Below are positions 149-7,976 of a DNA stretch of 64,000 nucleotides, piece after piece. This stretch comes from Spirochaetales bacterium (GTDB taxonomy: Bacteria; Spirochaetota; Spirochaetia; UBA9216): the NCBI GenBank assembly GCA_016839055.1, contig JAEKNX010000010.1, positions 62,001 through 126,000 of the forward strand. Direction: 5' to 3'. Numbering within the stretch: the first letter of the stretch is position 1; each line of letters opens with the position of its first letter. Both the position numbers and the translations under genes were made by a program. A model generated the notes under the pieces. The model did no database searches. It saw only the letters and a list, made by a program, of their open reading frames with translations, and had not been told where the DNA came from.

Positions 149-1237
149 ATGAGTAATACAATAAAAACTGATAATAATAAGATGTACAATGAGCTGAATC
201 AGCCTGTAAAAGGCGTCAGCCTCTGGCTGGACGCATGGAGACGTCTGCGTAAAAACAAGATGGCCATGGGCGGTCTTGTTGTAATGATTGTATATGCGGC
301 TATCGCGCTTTCCGCCGGCCTTTTGCCGATTTACTCCTTCAATCAGCAGGTTCTGGACCACCAGTATCTTCCTCCCTCAAGCAGGAGCGCAGGAGAGCTG
401 CTTATCGAGCAGAAGGTGGAGCTTCTGTCAGCCTTCGCCGCCAAAGAAGAGCGGGAGCTGAACAAGGTCGAACTTGGACAGATTGAAAAGCTTAAAGAGA
501 GGGTCGCCACCGAAAAGAAGGTACTTCTGACCGGGGAAGAAATCCTGGTGCATCAGAGAGTCTACCACCTTGGAACCGACGAGCTCGGACGTGACCTTTT
601 GGCGCGAATTATTTACGGCGGTCAGGTTTCGATAATGATTGGCCTCGTCGGTGCTTTGGCGTCGATGTTTATCGGGGTTGTTCTCGGAGCCTTGTCTGGT
701 TATATTGGCGGCCGCTTTGATTCAATAATGATGCGCTTTGTCGATATAATGTACAGCCTGCCTTATATGCTCCTTGTTATCATCATGATGGCCATCTTCG
801 GAAAGAATATCTTGAATCTGTTTTTCGCGCTGGCCGTAGTAAGCTGGCTGACGGTCTGCCGTGTTGTGCGCGGCCAGATTATGTCGCTTAAAAATTCTGA
901 GTTTGTTGAAGCGGCCCGTGCTTCAGGAGCCAGTACCCGGCGAATTGTTTTTAAGCACCTGATACCCAATACCATGAGTGTCATCGTTGTTTATACAACC
1001 CTTCGGGTTCCGGCCTTCATAATGCTCGAAGCCTTCCTGTCGTTTCTCGGACTCGGCGTTCAGGCGCCTTATGCATCCTGGGGAGTCCTCATCCATGACG
1101 GTGTCTATGCGATGACAACCTATCCCTGGATGCTCTGGTATCCTGCTACGGTTATGACTCTTTTCCTGTTTTCGATGAATTTCCTAGGCGATGGACTCAG
1201 GGATGCTCTGGATCCTCAGAGCAAGAACAAACTTTAA
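149..1237 (+). CDS. oppC: Oligopeptide ABC transporter permease OppC/DppC, with a helical insertion
   Basis: This is the second inner-membrane permease of a peptide importer. After a first membrane helix (about residues 38-60) comes the OppC hallmark HLGTDELGRDLLARIIYGG (about 140-158). The EAA loop that docks the ATPase (VEAARASGASTRRIVFKHLIPN) is near 253-274, with hydrophobic helices before and after it. At 362 residues it is longer than the usual roughly 300. The extra length is a charged, probably coiled-coil segment (about 85-135, rich in E, K and L) between helix 1 and the hallmark motif, predicted on the periplasmic side. The start at ATG 149 is supported by AGGGGG at 136-141, which overlaps the oppB stop. 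oppD begins 15 bases after the stop. Confidence 0.93.
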   Translation: MSNTIKTDNNKMYNELNQPVKGVSLWLDAWRRLRKNKMAMGGLVVMIVYAAIALSAGLLPIYSFNQQVLDHQYLPPSSRSAGELLIEQKVELLSAFAAKEERELNKVELGQIEKLKERVATEKKVLLTGEEILVHQRVYHLGTDELGRDLLARIIYGGQVSIMIGLVGALASMFIGVVLGALSGYIGGRFDSIMMRFVDIMYSLPYMLLVIIMMAIFGKNILNLFFALAVVSWLTVCRVVRGQIMSLKNSEFVEAARASGASTRRIVFKHLIPNTMSVIVVYTTLRVPAFIMLEAFLSFLGLGVQAPYASWGVLIHDGVYAMTTYPWMLWYPATVMTLFLFSMNFLGDGLRDALDPQSKNKL

Positions 1238-1252
1238 TAATCGGAGCGTGAA

Positions 1253-2233
1253 ATGAGTGAAGTAATACTGAAGGTCAATGATTTAAAGACCTATTTTAAT
1301 ACGGACGACGGTATAGTAAAGGCCGTCGACGGAGTTTCTTTCGAACTTGAAAAAGGTGAGATGCTGGGAATTGTAGGAGAGTCCGGTTCGGGGAAATCCG
1401 TAACGAACCTCTCACTAATGAAGCTGATCCCCTCTCCTCCCGGAAAAATAATGAGCGGTACCGCAATGCTGGACGGTGTGGACATCTTCAAGATGAATGA
1501 TAATGAAATCAGAAAGCTCAGGGGTAACCGGATAGGAATGATTTTCCAGGATCCGATGACGAGTCTCAATCCCTTCCTGCGGATTTCAACCCAGATGATC
1601 GAGACAATAATGTTGCATCAGGATAAGGATAAAAGCGCGGCACGGGCTAGGGCCGTTGAAATGCTCGAGATGGTTGGTATCCCGAATCCCTCGAAGAGGA
1701 TAAATGATTATCCTCATCAGTTTTCAGGCGGGATGAGGCAGCGTGTAATGATTGCCATGGCTCTTTCCTGTGACCCTGAGATTCTTATTGCGGATGAACC
1801 TACATCGGCTCTGGACGTGACAATACAGGCCCAGATAATCGAGGTTATGCAGGAGCTCTGCAGAAAGCTCAATACGGCGGTAATCATGATTACCCATGAC
1901 CTGGGTGTTGTTGCGGGAATATGCGACAAGGTCTGCGTTATGTATGCAGGCCGGATTGTCGAGAAGGGTTCAAATGATGAAATATTCAAGGATCCGAAAC
2001 ACCCCTACACTCAGGGGCTTATAAAGTCGGTTCCCCGGCTAGATCGGCCGTCTAAGGGTAGACTATATTCAATAGAGGGGCAGCCGCCTAACGTTATCGA
2101 TCTACCGGAATGCTGCCCCTTTCATCCGCGCTGTGAGAAGGCAATGGATAAATGCAGAAATACTTATCCTCCGTTAAAAGTCTTTGGCAAGGGCCGCGAA
2201 GTCAGCTGCTGGCTTTATGAGGGAGAGAAATAA
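1253..2233 (+). CDS. oppD: Oligopeptide ABC transporter ATPase OppD/DppD
   Basis: This is a cytoplasmic ATPase that powers peptide import with OppF. Visible motifs are Walker A GESGSGKS (about 42-49), the Q-loop region MIFQDPMTSLNP, the ABC signature FSGGMRQR (about 159) and Walker B ILIADEPTSALD (about 177-188), with the switch histidine in ITHDLGVVAG. The C-terminal oligopeptide-transporter extension carries a cysteine cluster (CCPFHPRCEKAMDKC and a later C). This cluster is common in OppD/OppF proteins and binds an iron-sulphur cluster in some of them. The stop codon TAA shares its last base with the ATG of oppF, so the two ATPases are translationally coupled. Confidence 0.95.
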   Translation: MSEVILKVNDLKTYFNTDDGIVKAVDGVSFELEKGEMLGIVGESGSGKSVTNLSLMKLIPSPPGKIMSGTAMLDGVDIFKMNDNEIRKLRGNRIGMIFQDPMTSLNPFLRISTQMIETIMLHQDKDKSAARARAVEMLEMVGIPNPSKRINDYPHQFSGGMRQRVMIAMALSCDPEILIADEPTSALDVTIQAQIIEVMQELCRKLNTAVIMITHDLGVVAGICDKVCVMYAGRIVEKGSNDEIFKDPKHPYTQGLIKSVPRLDRPSKGRLYSIEGQPPNVIDLPECCPFHPRCEKAMDKCRNTYPPLKVFGKGREVSCWLYEGEK

Positions 2234-3225
2234 TGGCTGATAATATACTACTACAGGTCAGAAACCTGAAAATGCACTTCCCGATTGAAGAGGGAATTTT
2301 ACTTAGAAAGAAGGTCGGCGCAATCAGGGCCATAGACGGTATAGATTTAGATATAGAGAAAGGGGAGACTCTCGGCCTCGTAGGCGAGTCCGGCTGTGGA
2401 AAATCGACTACCGCCAGATGTATAGCCCAGCTTCACAAGCCTACCGGAGGAGAGGTTCTGTTTCAGGGGAAGGACCTCTGTAAAGCCACCGGATCTGAGC
2501 TGCTGAGCGCCCGAATGGGAATACAGATGATTTTCCAGGATCCTTATGCGTCGCTGAATCCGAGAATGACGGCGGGAAATATTATTGCTGAGCCGATGGT
2601 GATCTACCGTGAACGCAAGATGCTTGATATAAGCAAGAAAGAGATAACATCGAGGGTTGAGGATCTGATGGAAAAGGTAGGCCTTTCCAAACATTTCAAG
2701 AACCGTTATCCTCATGAATTTTCAGGAGGCCAGCGCCAGAGAATAGGTGTTGCAAGGGCTCTCTCCCTGAATCCAAAACTGATTCTGGCTGATGAGCCGG
2801 TTTCCGCTCTTGATGTCTCAATTCAGTCGCAGATTCTTAATCTTCTCGATGATCTTCAGAAAGAATTTGATTTAACATTTCTCTTTATTGCCCACGACCT
2901 GGCGGTAATTCAGCACATCAGTACAAGGGTGGCTGTCATGTACCTCGGCAGGATTGTCGAGATTTCAACTGCTGAGGAACTCTATAAGAAGCCTCTTCAC
3001 CCATATACCGAGGCACTGATGTCGGCTGTTCCAATACCTGATCCGGATATTGAGCGAAACAGGAAGAGAATCATCCTTACCGGGGATGTTCCGTCTCCCG
3101 ATAAAGAGCGTTTCGGATGTTATTTTTATGACCGATGTCCAAAGAGGATGGAGAAGTGTAAGAGCAGCATCCCTCAGCTTAAGGTAATGGAGGGCAAGCA
3201 TCAGGTTGCCTGTTTTCTGCATTAA
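2233..3225 (+). CDS. oppF: Oligopeptide ABC transporter ATPase OppF/DppF
   Basis: This is the second ATPase of the peptide importer. It shows Walker A GESGCGKST, MIFQDPYASLNPRM, signature FSGGQRQRIG, Walker B LILADEPVSALD and the H-loop IAHDLAV. The C-terminal oligo_HPY extension contains HPYTEALMSAVP and the cysteine set RFGCYFYDRCPKRMEKC ... ACFLH, matching OppF. It is the last gene of the operon visible here. The next gene lies on the opposite strand and ends six bases away, and no clear terminator hairpin is visible between the convergent ends. The substrate-binding protein is not in this window. Confidence 0.95.
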   Translation: MADNILLQVRNLKMHFPIEEGILLRKKVGAIRAIDGIDLDIEKGETLGLVGESGCGKSTTARCIAQLHKPTGGEVLFQGKDLCKATGSELLSARMGIQMIFQDPYASLNPRMTAGNIIAEPMVIYRERKMLDISKKEITSRVEDLMEKVGLSKHFKNRYPHEFSGGQRQRIGVARALSLNPKLILADEPVSALDVSIQSQILNLLDDLQKEFDLTFLFIAHDLAVIQHISTRVAVMYLGRIVEISTAEELYKKPLHPYTEALMSAVPIPDPDIERNRKRIILTGDVPSPDKERFGCYFYDRCPKRMEKCKSSIPQLKVMEGKHQVACFLH

Positions 3226-3231
3226 TAAGAA

Positions 3232-3774
3232 CTAATCATTTTTGACAAGGGGGATTCCGCAGAAGTCTGCGAGAATCCCCGCTTTATTCTGGAGTCCTTC
3301 GGTTGTTCGGCTGTCAAGAGCCTCAAGGGTATCTCTATTGCCCGACTTAAAGTTCAGCCGCAGTTCCTGATGCCAGCGTTTATGGATAATCTTGGGCCCC
3401 CGCTGTGAGACTTCCGCCATGTTTTCGGCTGAGAAAGGGCGGCTGAGGTTTATTTCATGATCCGCCTTTCCGTCGGATTTTGCCCCCCGGAGGAAGAACA
3501 TCAGCTCGAAATTCTGGATTTCGGCGAATGAATAAACCCTCTTCCTGTGAAGAAAAACCAGTCCAAATCTGGATGTTATTATTCTCTTGCCGCTGTCGAA
3601 GGTCCACGACTCTTCGTAGAGGGCTGCAACAAGACAAACCATGCCAACGATAATCGGTACAAAGAGTCTCTCGGCATCAGATTCATCCGCGACGACCGCG
3701 ATTACCCCCCAGACGAGAACGCCAAAAAGGATTAGGAAAATTATCCGGAACCAGAATGCCGGGGAATAGGTCAT
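3232..3774 (-). CDS. Hypothetical membrane protein with two N-terminal TM helices
   Basis: This is an unrecognised membrane protein. Two hydrophobic helices sit at the N-terminus (FWFRIIFLILFGVLVWGVIAVV and LFVPIIVGMVCLVAALY). A soluble domain of about 110 residues follows that begins WTFDSGKRIITSRFGLVFLHRKRVYSFAEIQ. This pattern resembles the PH-like domain of small bacterial two-helix membrane proteins in the YcxB/DUF304 style, which is an inference from shape only. I prefer the ATG at 3774 (180 aa) because GAGGA lies just upstream. An in-frame ATG at 3831 would give 199 aa but has no ribosome site. It is convergent with oppF and has no obvious functional partner. Confidence 0.6.
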   Translation of the reverse strand: MTYSPAFWFRIIFLILFGVLVWGVIAVVADESDAERLFVPIIVGMVCLVAALYEESWTFDSGKRIITSRFGLVFLHRKRVYSFAEIQNFELMFFLRGAKSDGKADHEINLSRPFSAENMAEVSQRGPKIIHKRWHQELRLNFKSGNRDTLEALDSRTTEGLQNKAGILADFCGIPLVKND

Positions 3775-4094
3775 GATATCCTCGGATTTTCTGCGTAAAA
3801 TAAGGTTCAGTTTAAACAAACTGCTCTCCATTTATTATTAGTTTAATAATCATAGACTAATAAAATATAGGGGTAAAAGCAAGTAATGATAAAAAGAATG
3901 AGCAATTCTGAATTTGACTGCAATTTCCCCGAATGTCGGCCCTTGCTGACCCCGACACCATCAGAAAAAGGTTCGGAAGACCTCAATTTTATTTGTTCCG
4001 ACATTTCTCTTCGCTGAACGTGAAACCTTTACAGTTCCCGGCCTGTATCTGGTTTCGGCGGCCGGGAGTTGCGATAAGGATGAGGAGATTGTTT

Positions 4095-4811
4095 TCAGTA
4101 TTTCTCTGCGACAGTGAGGATTGAAGCAGTCTCGCCGAAGGCATCTATTGTCTTGCTGTCATTAAGAGGATCCGCGAGAGAAGTTCCGTCTACAATGAAT
4201 TTATATTTATATTTACCTTCCCGTGCTCTTATCGTATAGGTATAGGTCCCGGAGCCCCCTGATTCTCTCATCCTGAACATATAAGGCTCCCAATTGTTGA
4301 AGTCGCCGTATACGTAGACCCTCTGGCCGGGGTTGCCGTTATAGATGAAGGTTATTTGTTTCCCGCTAGTTTGCGGAGATTCCGGCGGACCGGCTTTCTC
4401 CGGGACAGTGAAGCTGGAGAGTGAAATTCCGCCAAGGCCTCTGCTTGTTACTGGGTTCTCAGGATCAGTCATCCAGAGTCCGTCGACTACAATTCTGTAA
4501 TCAAGATTCTTCATATCCTCTTTAAGCGGGTAGGTTAAGACATAAACACCATTGGTATTGATGTAAAACGGATGAATTTTTTTGAAATCTTCATGCTGGA
4601 AGGCTGCCCCGACAAAACGGTACCGTCTCGCGCCCTTGTAAGTTAAAACCAGGTGGTTGTCGATTAGTTCAGGGGGGGAGGCGTCGGTGGCCTCGGTAAT
4701 CGCAAAATGCAGTCTTACTGTCACACGTTCTGCCGAGACCGAAGCAGCAGTCAGAAACAGAAAAAGCAGTGAGAGAATTATTATCTGTGAAAAAGTATGT
4801 CGTGTAATCAT
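4095..4811 (-). CDS. Exported protein with two glycogen-binding (CBM48/AMPK-beta-like) modules
   Basis: A signal peptide (about residues 1-27, ending AASVSA) precedes two immunoglobulin-like modules. The second (about 150-238) is a clear AMPK-beta/CBM48 type: ITFIYNGNPGQRVYVYGDFNNWEPYMFRM ... YTIRAREGKYKYKFIVDGTSLADPLN. The first (about 29-135) is a divergent copy, with a matching YRIVVDGLWMTDPENP. In characterised proteins this fold binds alpha-glucans or acts as a docking domain; no catalytic domain is present here. It is probably periplasmic or surface-located. It is divergently oriented from the FlcA-like gene across 129 bases. The function is not known; the module assignment is firm for the second copy and tentative for the first. 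Confidence 0.75.
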   Translation of the reverse strand: MITRHTFSQIIILSLLFLFLTAASVSAERVTVRLHFAITEATDASPPELIDNHLVLTYKGARRYRFVGAAFQHEDFKKIHPFYINTNGVYVLTYPLKEDMKNLDYRIVVDGLWMTDPENPVTSRGLGGISLSSFTVPEKAGPPESPQTSGKQITFIYNGNPGQRVYVYGDFNNWEPYMFRMRESGGSGTYTYTIRAREGKYKYKFIVDGTSLADPLNDSKTIDAFGETASILTVAEKY

Positions 4812-4940
4812 TGTTCTCTTATTAGTTTCGGTTCTGCTCTGTGAATGCTTGACTGATTAATCCGAGATGATAATTATAAACTTGAGTCAATTGTCTTAAT
4901 TAATCCTAACTCATCGCTTTAAATATTCCGAAATTCAAAT

Positions 4941-7900
4941 ATGCCCGAAATTCGCGAAATCGATGAGTTTAAGAATGAATTTATCCAGCTTGGAAATGAA
5001 CCGGAGATAAGATCTCAGCGCGGTGAACCTCTTCCGAACATAACTGTGCCTGAAATCGCTGAGACAGATGATCTGAGCGCATTGTTTGATGAGTCCAATG
5101 AGTCTGCCGGTGAATCTGAGGATGCCATGGAAACCCCCGATGATTTACTCTCCGGACTTTTCGAAGAAGAAGATGATGATATAGAGCCCGTGGAGTTTGA
5201 TTCCACGGAAGATGAAATCGTCGAAGATTCGCCTGACGAAGAACCCGTTGATGACGGCCTTGAGGAATTCGGTGATCTGGATGAACTTGATTTTAGTGAA
5301 GAAGATGGCGCTCTGGAGGCTGTAGAGGCAGCAGAGGAAGCCGAACCGGCAGAAGATGAGTTCGGTATTCCAGAAGGCCTGACAGGCGGCTTAGAGGACG
5401 ATCTCGAACCACTGGAAGAAGCACCCGAGGACGAAGTCGGCATTGATGATGCGGTTTCTGAACCCGAAACACCTGAGTCGGAAGATTTTGATTTTGATAC
5501 TGATTTTCCTGAAATAGCGGACTTTGAATCTGAGCTTGAAGAGATAAGTGAAGAGATAAGTGAAGAGATAAGTGAAGAGATAAGTGAAGAATCCCCAGAA
5601 GAGGTAATTGAGCAGTCCCATGCAGAGGAGGATGTTTCTTTTGACTCATTCGACGAGATCGCGGACTTTGACAGCCTTGATATGGATGACGAGCCGGGGC
5701 TGCCTGGTGAGGATGAACCGGCGGATACCGGTTACGATTTTGATACTGATGAGAGTTTTTCCGAAACGGAAGAGCTTCCTGAAAGCACAGATGACTTCAG
5801 TTTCGATGATATGGAAGCAGCCGGCGGAGATGAGTTTTCTGATGATGATTTCAGCCTTGAGGATTTCAGTCTCGGTGAAATTGATGGGGATGATATAGAG
5901 GCTACCGAGTTCAGCCTGGGAGATCTGGGGCAGGAATTCGGTATAGATGACGCAGTCGAGACAGGTGTCGGTCAACTGGAAGATGTTGTTTCTCCGCTTG
6001 GGGCTGACGGAGGTGAATTTGGTGACGCCTTTGACGATGACAGCTATGCTGTCCCTGATGATGAATGGATTGGACTGAAGAAAACACTCGGTCAGATGCC
6101 GAGAAATTTGAAGATATTGATAGAGGAGCTGATAGGAGAGAAGAATCTTTCCGGAGAAAATCTTGACAAGCTTCTCAAGGCTTTAATCCGAGGGGCAGGG
6201 GCAAAGGAAATTGCAGCAATTGTATCAAAGATAACCGGTAAAAAGGTTAAGATCCCGATACAATATGAGCGAAGGACAGCTGCGGAATTTGAGAAGGAAA
6301 AAAGCACCTTTGGTTATGCATTCAGGAAAAATTTTATTCCTATGTTCAGGACTGCTGCTCTGGTGGCTGCCGCGCTGGGCCTTTTGATATTTGTCAGTTT
6401 CAGATTTATTTATAAACCGCTTCATGCGGAATCTCTCTACAAGAAAGGCTGGGAGGAGATCTACAATGGAAACAACCAGCAGGCAAATGCCTATTTCGAT
6501 CGGGCATTCAGCGAATTGCGGAAGAGAGACTGGTTTTATAAATATGCCGAGGCTTTCGCGGAGAACAAGCAGTATGTTAATGCTGAGGAAAAATATGAAC
6601 AGCTATTGGGCTGGTATCCGGGGGACAGGGATGGGCTTCTTGACTATGCCGAACTCGAGTTCAAGACTCTTGGGAAGTATCCTGAGGCTGAAGCGTTATT
6701 AAAGAAACAGCTTTTTGAGGATCAGCTCGACTATGACGCCAGATTGATGCTCGGAGATACTTATATGGAATGGGCACGAGAGATTGACCCTTTACTATAT
6801 GAAGAAGCCCGTTTTAACTATGCCAAGCTGCTGGAACAATACGGAGGACAGAACAGCCTTTTATTCCGCATGCTCCGCTATTTTATCAGGACGGATAATT
6901 ATGATGAGGCAATGATTCTCTATGAGGCCTTTCAGGGAAATTCAAAAGCAAAGGTTGAACCTGATATTTATGCCGAACTTGCAGGTTATCTGATAGATAA
7001 TAATCACATGGAAGATGTCAGAGAAATCCTGATGAATGCCAGGTCGATTCAGGAAGATCTTCCGGAGATTCATTATGAATTTGCCAGATATTTTGATATA
7101 CTCGACATTCCGGCCGAGGAGGAAAAAGCTCTGCTTGCGGCGCTATGGCTCTTTGAGAACACTGATCCTCTTACCAGAACCAGGACGGGACTCCTTATTG
7201 ATACATATAATAGATATGGCAAGATTCTTTATGAGAAAGAGTTGTATCTTGACGCAGAAGAAAATTTCAGTAAGGCGGCGCTGAATTATGAGGACGCCCT
7301 GTTGAACGGGCAGCTGAAGCCCGACCCGAAATACGGCACAATATATTCAAATCTTGGAGATCTTGCCTACTACATCAGTGGGAATTATGATCAGGCTCTT
7401 AGTTTTTTCGAGAAAGCGGAAAAGAACGGATATTCTCCATTTAATTTAAAATACAAGAAGGGTTACGTCTATTACTCAAAAGAAGATTTCCGCAAGGCCC
7501 TCGTTGAGTTCTATGATACAGCCGGAGGTTTCTCGGTAGATAAGCAGCTTCTATATTCTACAGCTAACACCCTATTTAACCGTAATGACTATTATCTGGC
7601 TGAAGGATATTATACTCATCTGCAGGACCTTCTTGAGAAAGAATATTCATCGATCAGCTATCTCCTGATTAATGAAGTTCCAGAGCACCGGATTCTGCTT
7701 GAAAATATGATGAAGGTCAGCAATAACCTTGGGGTTACAAAATACAGGCTGTATGAACGTAATCGGGATCCTGAAAAAAATGCCGAGGCAATGGTTCTCC
7801 TGACAGAAGCGACTGAGTTCTATGACAAGCTTGTACGTGATCCAAATTCACTCATAGAACCTGAGACTGTAAATCTCTCCTATCTTAATTCGAAGGCCGT

Positions 7901-7976
7901 TTTTTATCCGGTTCCGGATTACAGACCCCAGATATATCAGGATATTCCTAAGGATATGACTCGGGCTCAATATTGA
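4941..7976 (+). CDS. Large acidic single-TM TPR protein, probably periplasmic flagellar collar protein FlcA-like
   Basis: This is a 1011-residue protein in four parts. Residues 1-370 are extremely acidic and low in complexity, rich in D, E and S, with an EEIS tandem repeat. Residues 373-440 form a short folded helical domain (WIGLKKTLGQMPRNLKILIEEL...). One membrane helix lies near 466-490 (TAALVAAALGLLIFVSFRFIY). Residues 494-980 are TPR-like helical repeats (AEEKYEQLLGWYPGDRDGLLDYAELE, FEKAEKNGYSPFNLKYKKGYVYY). Cytoplasmic acid tail, one helix and periplasmic TPRs is the organisation of spirochaete FlcA (Borrelia BB0326), which builds the periplasmic flagellar collar. The assignment is by architecture, not alignment. 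No ribosome site is evident before ATG 4941. A terminator follows at 8000-8029. Confidence 0.6.
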   Translation: MPEIREIDEFKNEFIQLGNEPEIRSQRGEPLPNITVPEIAETDDLSALFDESNESAGESEDAMETPDDLLSGLFEEEDDDIEPVEFDSTEDEIVEDSPDEEPVDDGLEEFGDLDELDFSEEDGALEAVEAAEEAEPAEDEFGIPEGLTGGLEDDLEPLEEAPEDEVGIDDAVSEPETPESEDFDFDTDFPEIADFESELEEISEEISEEISEEISEESPEEVIEQSHAEEDVSFDSFDEIADFDSLDMDDEPGLPGEDEPADTGYDFDTDESFSETEELPESTDDFSFDDMEAAGGDEFSDDDFSLEDFSLGEIDGDDIEATEFSLGDLGQEFGIDDAVETGVGQLEDVVSPLGADGGEFGDAFDDDSYAVPDDEWIGLKKTLGQMPRNLKILIEELIGEKNLSGENLDKLLKALIRGAGAKEIAAIVSKITGKKVKIPIQYERRTAAEFEKEKSTFGYAFRKNFIPMFRTAALVAAALGLLIFVSFRFIYKPLHAESLYKKGWEEIYNGNNQQANAYFDRAFSELRKRDWFYKYAEAFAENKQYVNAEEKYEQLLGWYPGDRDGLLDYAELEFKTLGKYPEAEALLKKQLFEDQLDYDARLMLGDTYMEWAREIDPLLYEEARFNYAKLLEQYGGQNSLLFRMLRYFIRTDNYDEAMILYEAFQGNSKAKVEPDIYAELAGYLIDNNHMEDVREILMNARSIQEDLPEIHYEFARYFDILDIPAEEEKALLAALWLFENTDPLTRTRTGLLIDTYNRYGKILYEKELYLDAEENFSKAALNYEDALLNGQLKPDPKYGTIYSNLGDLAYYISGNYDQALSFFEKAEKNGYSPFNLKYKKGYVYYSKEDFRKALVEFYDTAGGFSVDKQLLYSTANTLFNRNDYYLAEGYYTHLQDLLEKEYSSISYLLINEVPEHRILLENMMKVSNNLGVTKYRLYERNRDPEKNAEAMVLLTEATEFYDKLVRDPNSLIEPETVNLSYLNSKAVFYPVPDYRPQIYQDIPKDMTRAQY
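5538..5585 (+). repeat. Four perfect 12-bp tandem repeats inside the acidic region
   Basis: The unit GAAGAGATAAGT is repeated four times without a mismatch and encodes EEIS four times in frame. A partial fifth copy (GAAGAA) follows. The repeat keeps the reading frame, so length changes by slippage would be tolerated. Confidence 0.95.

Follow-up and report, generated by a model that had tools for sequence, protein, structure and literature searches.

FlcA (BB0326) of Borrelia burgdorferi, a protein of 931 amino acids (PMC8609358), is described in section 8 of PMC11750108 as the S-shaped density at the rim of the flagellar collar, where it contacts FliL and MotB and raises stator occupancy. According to passages of PMC11750108 and PMC8609358, motors without FlcA fall into two classes, one without stators and one with some. 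In PMC11870540, the Campylobacter proteins PflA and PflB are discussed along with FlcA and FlcB under the heading of periplasmic TPR scaffolds, whose sequence and gene order are not conserved across taxa, and part of a 2026 review (PMC13023049) states that components of the collar are still missing.

The stretch of 64,000 nucleotides analyzed here (the window) encodes a protein with the same two NCBIfam domains as BB0326, and both proteins run from an N-terminal motif through an acidic linker, a pre-membrane domain and a membrane helix to the TPRs. The proteins have nevertheless diverged: BLASTP aligns the window protein to a Borrelia-like copy with about 27% identity outside the linker (178 bits, E 5e-52), and the linker is longer and more acidic than that of the Borrelia-like copy at locus L037 (328 vs 210 aa, 43% vs 35% D+E). 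Another Borrelia-like copy is 931 aa long and scores above the cut-off of both NCBIfam models. When the complete model is compared with known folds, the top match is the C-terminal TPR domain of LIC11990 from Leptospira interrogans (PDB code 8ebf; Foldseek E 2e-10), but TM-scores of 0.31 and 0.43 and an identity of 14% are low and generic TPR proteins score almost as well (4.9e-9). Orthology with LIC11990 is therefore not established.

Identification and domain organization of FlcA

The gene and the parts of its product are located as follows.

4941–7976, forward strand: flcA, 1011 aa with an ATG start, defined by the open reading frame and both NCBIfam FlcA models
4941–5054, forward strand: conserved N-terminal motif, residues 1–38 (FlcA_NTERM), with two short predicted helices
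5055–6056, forward strand: acidic linker, residues 39–372, predicted to be disordered from its composition and from pLDDT values below 50 over most of its length
5067–5090, forward strand: second short element, DDLSALFD, residues 43–50, found in most near relatives (held-out loci L056–L078)
5537–5590, forward strand: perfect, in-frame 12-bp tandem repeat of 4.5 copies within the linker
6057–6236, forward strand: predicted cytoplasmic four-helix domain, residues 373–432, from the model and conserved
6330–6422, forward strand: membrane helix, about residues 464–494, from hydropathy and lying within a long modelled helix (457–508)
6417–7964, forward strand: periplasmic TPR solenoid, residues 493–1008, from Pfam TPR, FlcA_CTERM and the model, with its side taken from the Borrelia literature

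Both NCBIfam models match above their cut-offs: FlcA_CTERM covers residues 379–1006 with 644.5 bits (cut-off 300) and FlcA_NTERM residues 1–38 with 44.2 bits (cut-off 28). The N-terminal motif occurs once in the genome, inside this reading frame. The nearest flcA loci are those of Spirochaeta sp. UBA9216 (76%), a Spirochaetales bacterium (75%) and Candidatus Thalassospirochaeta sargassi (73%). The genome also has four flagellin matches, which mark the organism as flagellated, the periplasmic position of the filaments being taken from its phylum, and an operon with the order fliF-fliG-fliH-fliI-fliJ-flbB-fliK-flgD-flgE-motA-motB-fliL-fliM (named by eye where the products were not scanned). Its FlbB (220.7 bits, cut-off 110) and MotB (346.6 bits, cut-off 300) exceed the NCBIfam thresholds, MotA and FliL match clearly below theirs, and FliM scores 280 bits in Pfam. 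With the TPR region aligned to FlcA and the genome carrying flagellar genes, the proposal of the initial annotation that the ORF is an FlcA orthologue is confirmed. NF047369 and NF047370, considered as models of other collar proteins, describe an unrelated toxin–antitoxin pair and were discarded. Elsewhere in the same genome (L055, 2375–3571), a FliY/FliN-like protein carries a long repeat of GQMGGM type between its domains.

A full-length model of FlcA, built from 48 sequences, has a mean pLDDT of 72.3 and a pTM of 0.58. Its N-terminal helices (4–16 and 20–27) have pLDDT values of about 76–82, and the solenoid is helical to about residue 1008 with values mostly above 90. The protein contains one hydrophobic stretch (about 464–494) with positive residues on either flank, and its orientation is taken from Borrelia. 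The architecture originally sketched for the protein corresponds closely to these data: the roughly 370 acidic residues are a stretch of 352 residues without Lys or Arg (28–379) that contains 145 Asp or Glu, the single membrane helix is the hydrophobic stretch, and the roughly 490 residues of repeats are the Pfam TPRs from about residue 500 and the modelled solenoid to about 1008. The conserved N-terminal motif and the predicted folded domain before the membrane were overlooked in that sketch.

The pre-membrane stretch modelled alone reaches a pLDDT of 80.8 and a pTM of 0.53. Searches of this domain against known folds gave a best Foldseek E of 1.2 and a best VIA-align Z of 3.8 at an rmsd of 12.1, and a profile search against solved chains gave a best E of 0.39. 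In Pfam, the RsmI_C HTH family matched 10 of 42 members with a best E of 7e-4, which is under the cut-off for the member shown. The predicted domain thus has no convincing known fold, and we do not claim a new one.

The distribution of FlcA was followed in 296 genomes of the phylum, 281 of them with flagellin; 178 lie outside the class of the organism, and the class itself is represented by 103 genomes with flagellin and 15 without it (families f9 and f12). FlcA_CTERM is found in all 103 flagellated class genomes at E 5e-52 or better. Eight of the 15 flagellin-less genomes have no match and the other seven have weak ones (best 2.5e-11), and the N-terminal motif is found in none of the 15. The motif occurs once per genome in 107 of the 296 genomes, including 101 of the 103 flagellated class members; because two of these (G185 and G267) lack it and 6 of the 178 genomes outside the class have it (E 0.001), the N-terminal hook is not universal.

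An acidic linker between conserved ends

The charge of the linker is unusual within the window. Of the non-overlapping ORFs that reach 150 aa, 50 in number, flcA has by far the longest run free of Lys and Arg, the next being 96 residues; with flcA set aside, these ORFs have on average 12.6% D+E and 10.4% K+R. Among FlcA proteins, acidity is the rule. All 89 linkers measured are acidic, with 22–47% D+E, 0–6.7% K+R and lengths of 210–740 aa (median 360); they comprise 30 sequences of a first set and 59 of a second, between which further overlap is possible after removal of L067 as a duplicate of L044. Twenty sequences per set, in which the N-terminus was cut off or unrecognized, were excluded, and L053 was not recovered; eight of the excluded sequences, read from the first methionine, have 24–42% D+E and 2–11% K+R. 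The shortest linker is that of L037 and the longest measured that of L101 (740 aa), with about 900 aa in G247 as judged from coordinates. At 328 aa and 43% D+E, the window linker ranks 36th of 89 from the shortest and fifth in acidity, and is one of eight with no Lys or Arg at all. The tail had been called an exceptional expansion. Neither description is supported, as all 89 linkers are acidic and many are longer; the window linker does stand out in acidity, its complete lack of Lys and Arg being shared with seven others.

A comparison of the window protein with its two nearest relatives reveals where the sequence is kept. The linker is 40–48% identical and gapped, the N-terminal motif 74–79%, the pre-membrane part 79–83% and the TPRs 73–76%. 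The linker retains its composition while its sequence drifts. The acidic tail is an old trait of the class and no strain-specific expansion. The in-frame 12-bp repeat shows one possible route of change in length. Synonymous sites of the linker are mostly saturated, and dN/dS was therefore not used. A gapped 4-mer search found that most top motifs of the discovery set of linkers are rare in the test set; the few common to both include DF.IP (10/40 and 16/52) and DFSL (6/40 and 19/52). The element DDLSALFD keeps an about constant place in most near relatives (held-out loci L056–L078). Three FlcA-like sequences from outside the class (L050, L051 and L054) share a different N-terminal motif, of the approximate form FDxIxKxLGxE as read by eye, which precedes the acidic linker as though it had taken the place of the hook. 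A search of the open-licence literature for FlcA together with disorder returned nothing relevant.

The best overall explanation, to which we give a probability of about 80%, is that the gene encodes FlcA, an outer-rim collar protein with an old, three-part cytoplasmic half. The C-terminal solenoid would lie in the periplasm, where Borrelia FlcA meets FliL and MotB and stabilizes the 16 stator units, with the single membrane helix as anchor. How the cytoplasmic half works can be proposed more tentatively. On this side, the N-terminal helices would form a hook, carried by a disordered, negatively charged tether that starts from a folded domain set against the membrane. As a charged and self-repelling chain, the tether may allow each of about 16 FlcA copies to reach and hold a cytoplasmic partner and may keep neighbouring copies apart; candidate partners at the motor, by the stator or the rim of the C-ring, include MotA, the C-ring itself or an assembly factor. 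We infer this tethered hook from the layout of the cytoplasmic half, in which both ends are conserved and the middle is constrained in charge and free in length. A disordered acidic tail may, however, have no specific partner, and we place the mechanism, including its function and partner, at somewhat less than even odds.

Its main rival, which we regard as unlikely though worth serious attention, is an electrostatic bristle that spaces the FlcA copies and has no specific partner; it might also hold DNA and anionic lipid away from the collar, favouring a DNA-free cell end. Retention of charge while linker sequence and length drift is what such a bristle predicts. Yet a bristle has no need of a conserved far N-terminus, which is preserved here as well as the TPRs are (74–79% between nearest relatives) and which 101 of the 103 flagellated genomes in the class carry.

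Much less probable, at a small fraction of the chance we allow the bristle, is a tail that carries many FliM-like peptides of the form [DE]LxxLL and holds CheY or a switch protein. FliM and FliY of the same genome do start with SQDEIDxLL, and the first 50 linkers contain 50 matches in 29 of them against 5.8 expected (the maximum of 200 shuffles was 14), for a motif chosen post hoc. The held-out set of 59 linkers gave 19 matches against 6.9 expected, and these divide into 14 against 2.0 in 15 near relatives, mostly in a single fixed position, and 5 against 4.8 in the 44 sequences of Treponema type; the reversed motif gave 2 against 6.9 in this set. Having failed in the held-out set, the multivalent motif was rejected as a general property of the linker. 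Individual linkers are nonetheless rich in it, with eight DLxxLL-like copies in L052 and five in L054 that resemble the start of FliM and FliY.

Finally, an ordinary TPR membrane protein outside the collar, FlcA-like through its repeats alone, is hardly credible: TPR solenoids match many proteins and FlcA_CTERM gives weak matches in 11 of 14 control genomes, but none of these exceeds the cut-off, which identifies them as TPR background, whereas the window protein scores twice the cut-off, also fits the non-TPR FlcA_NTERM model (0 of 14 controls) and belongs to a family whose distribution tracks flagellin.

The divergent CBM48-like gene and its neighbourhood

Upstream of flcA, the window contains the following features.

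149–3225, forward strand: oppC-, oppD- and oppF-like genes, named by eye
4095–4811, reverse strand: divergent neighbour of flcA, 238 aa, CBM48/AMPK1_CBM-like, with an apparent signal peptide
4812–4940, no strand: intergenic region of 129 bp common to flcA and the divergent CBM48 gene

The neighbour protein matches PF16561 (61.1 bits, cut-off 26.8) and PF02922 (31.9 bits, cut-off 22.4) over residues 151–236 approximately, and the solved chain closest to it is 1z0n (E 9.8e-10). By PF16561 and 1z0n it resembles the carbohydrate-binding module of the AMPK beta-subunit and CBM48; it differs from these in its apparent signal peptide, recognized by eye and hydropathy, and in having no attached kinase or glycogen enzyme. 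All 31 members of the family match PF16561 at E 0.01 or better. The first half of the protein, with a weak Pfam match or none, carries a similar motif, DGLWxxDPxNP. Within the family, Trp174 (NNW, second half) is invariant and Trp113 (DGLW, first half) nearly so; tryptophans of this kind presumably make the glucan contacts in AMPK. The intergenic region holds a TTGAC element that is kept in two relatives, identified from consensus matches only.

The pairing with flcA is widespread. The flcA start could be placed in 95 loci, in some only as the first methionine, and 72 of these have at least 900 bp upstream; a divergent homologue is present in 65 of the 72 (64 of 71 if the duplicate L067 is set aside), the exceptions being L037, L045, L048, L049, L050, L051 and L054. 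Whole-genome coordinates, available for all but one of the 107 genomes that carry the N-terminal motif of FlcA, place the homologue divergent to flcA at 46–615 bp in 64, 6.9–12.3 kb away in 30 Borrelia-like genomes, and far off or on another contig in 12.

The CBM48 gene of the window has flcA on one side and oppC, oppD and oppF on the other. The Borrelia-like locus L138 has, by eye, the order flcA, acyltransferase-like gene, three oppA, oppB, oppC, oppD, oppF, CBM48 gene and eno; because opp genes thus stand beside the CBM48 gene in both, the opp link is old, and opp, the CBM48 gene and flcA form an old shared neighbourhood. The three elements lie together at 149–7976 of the window and in rearranged form at 804–14948 of L138. 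A tblastn search with the window opp genes in the fetched flanks of Treponema-type loci found none near flcA, and the CBM48 neighbour stays there. The Borrelia-like copy between oppF and eno is one that we take to be P26/BB0336. Searches of the open-licence literature found no paper for BB0336 or TP0710, P26 only as a primer name, and no link of glycogen binding to spirochete flagella or the collar among the matches listed.

Across the phylum, a profile of the family finds matches in 270 of the 296 genomes (E 0.001). These include all 103 flagellated genomes of the class, every one at 5e-45 or better, and 165 of 178 outside the class. Of the 15 flagellin-less class genomes, 13 have no match and two (G224, 6.5e-10; G261, 4.3e-13) match with the second domain only. 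A plain Fisher test that ignores relatedness gives 3e-19 for the association with flagellin in the class, where the flagellin-less genomes belong to two families and may reflect one or two loss events. All 30 of the small f5 genomes retain the gene, which also persists where it has moved away from flcA, and the Borrelia-like genomes surveyed have one copy each.

On these grounds, the neighbour may be an overlooked periplasmic flagellar protein that works with FlcA, perhaps as one of the unassigned collar densities or as a clamp between the collar and cell-wall glycan; we consider this possible and somewhat short of probable. FlcA would then grip the stators and, by way of its acidic tether and hook, a cytoplasmic partner, and the CBM48 protein would fix the rim in the periplasm. 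Against a flagellar role, CBM48 domains are common, many genomes have several matches to the family (up to ten outside the class), and 13 flagellated genomes outside the class have none. Nor is it helped by the relocated CBM48 genes, since in the five stretches inspected (L142–L146) none is beside flagellar structural genes. In two of these stretches (L142, 3315–4022; L146, 3157–3858), the CBM48 gene is near murA-, pth- and lptB-like genes, named by eye.

Implications for the spirochetal collar

The passages on FlcA cited here concern its periplasmic half. The survey adds that the cytoplasmic half follows a design that is conserved, and constrained in charge, throughout the flagellated part of the class, and a truncation experiment is therefore well defined. 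The neighbour gene, with a distribution that follows flagella, is a candidate for the missing collar components. The conserved cytoplasmic design of FlcA, together with the neighbour gene as a new lead, is what is worth keeping from this locus.
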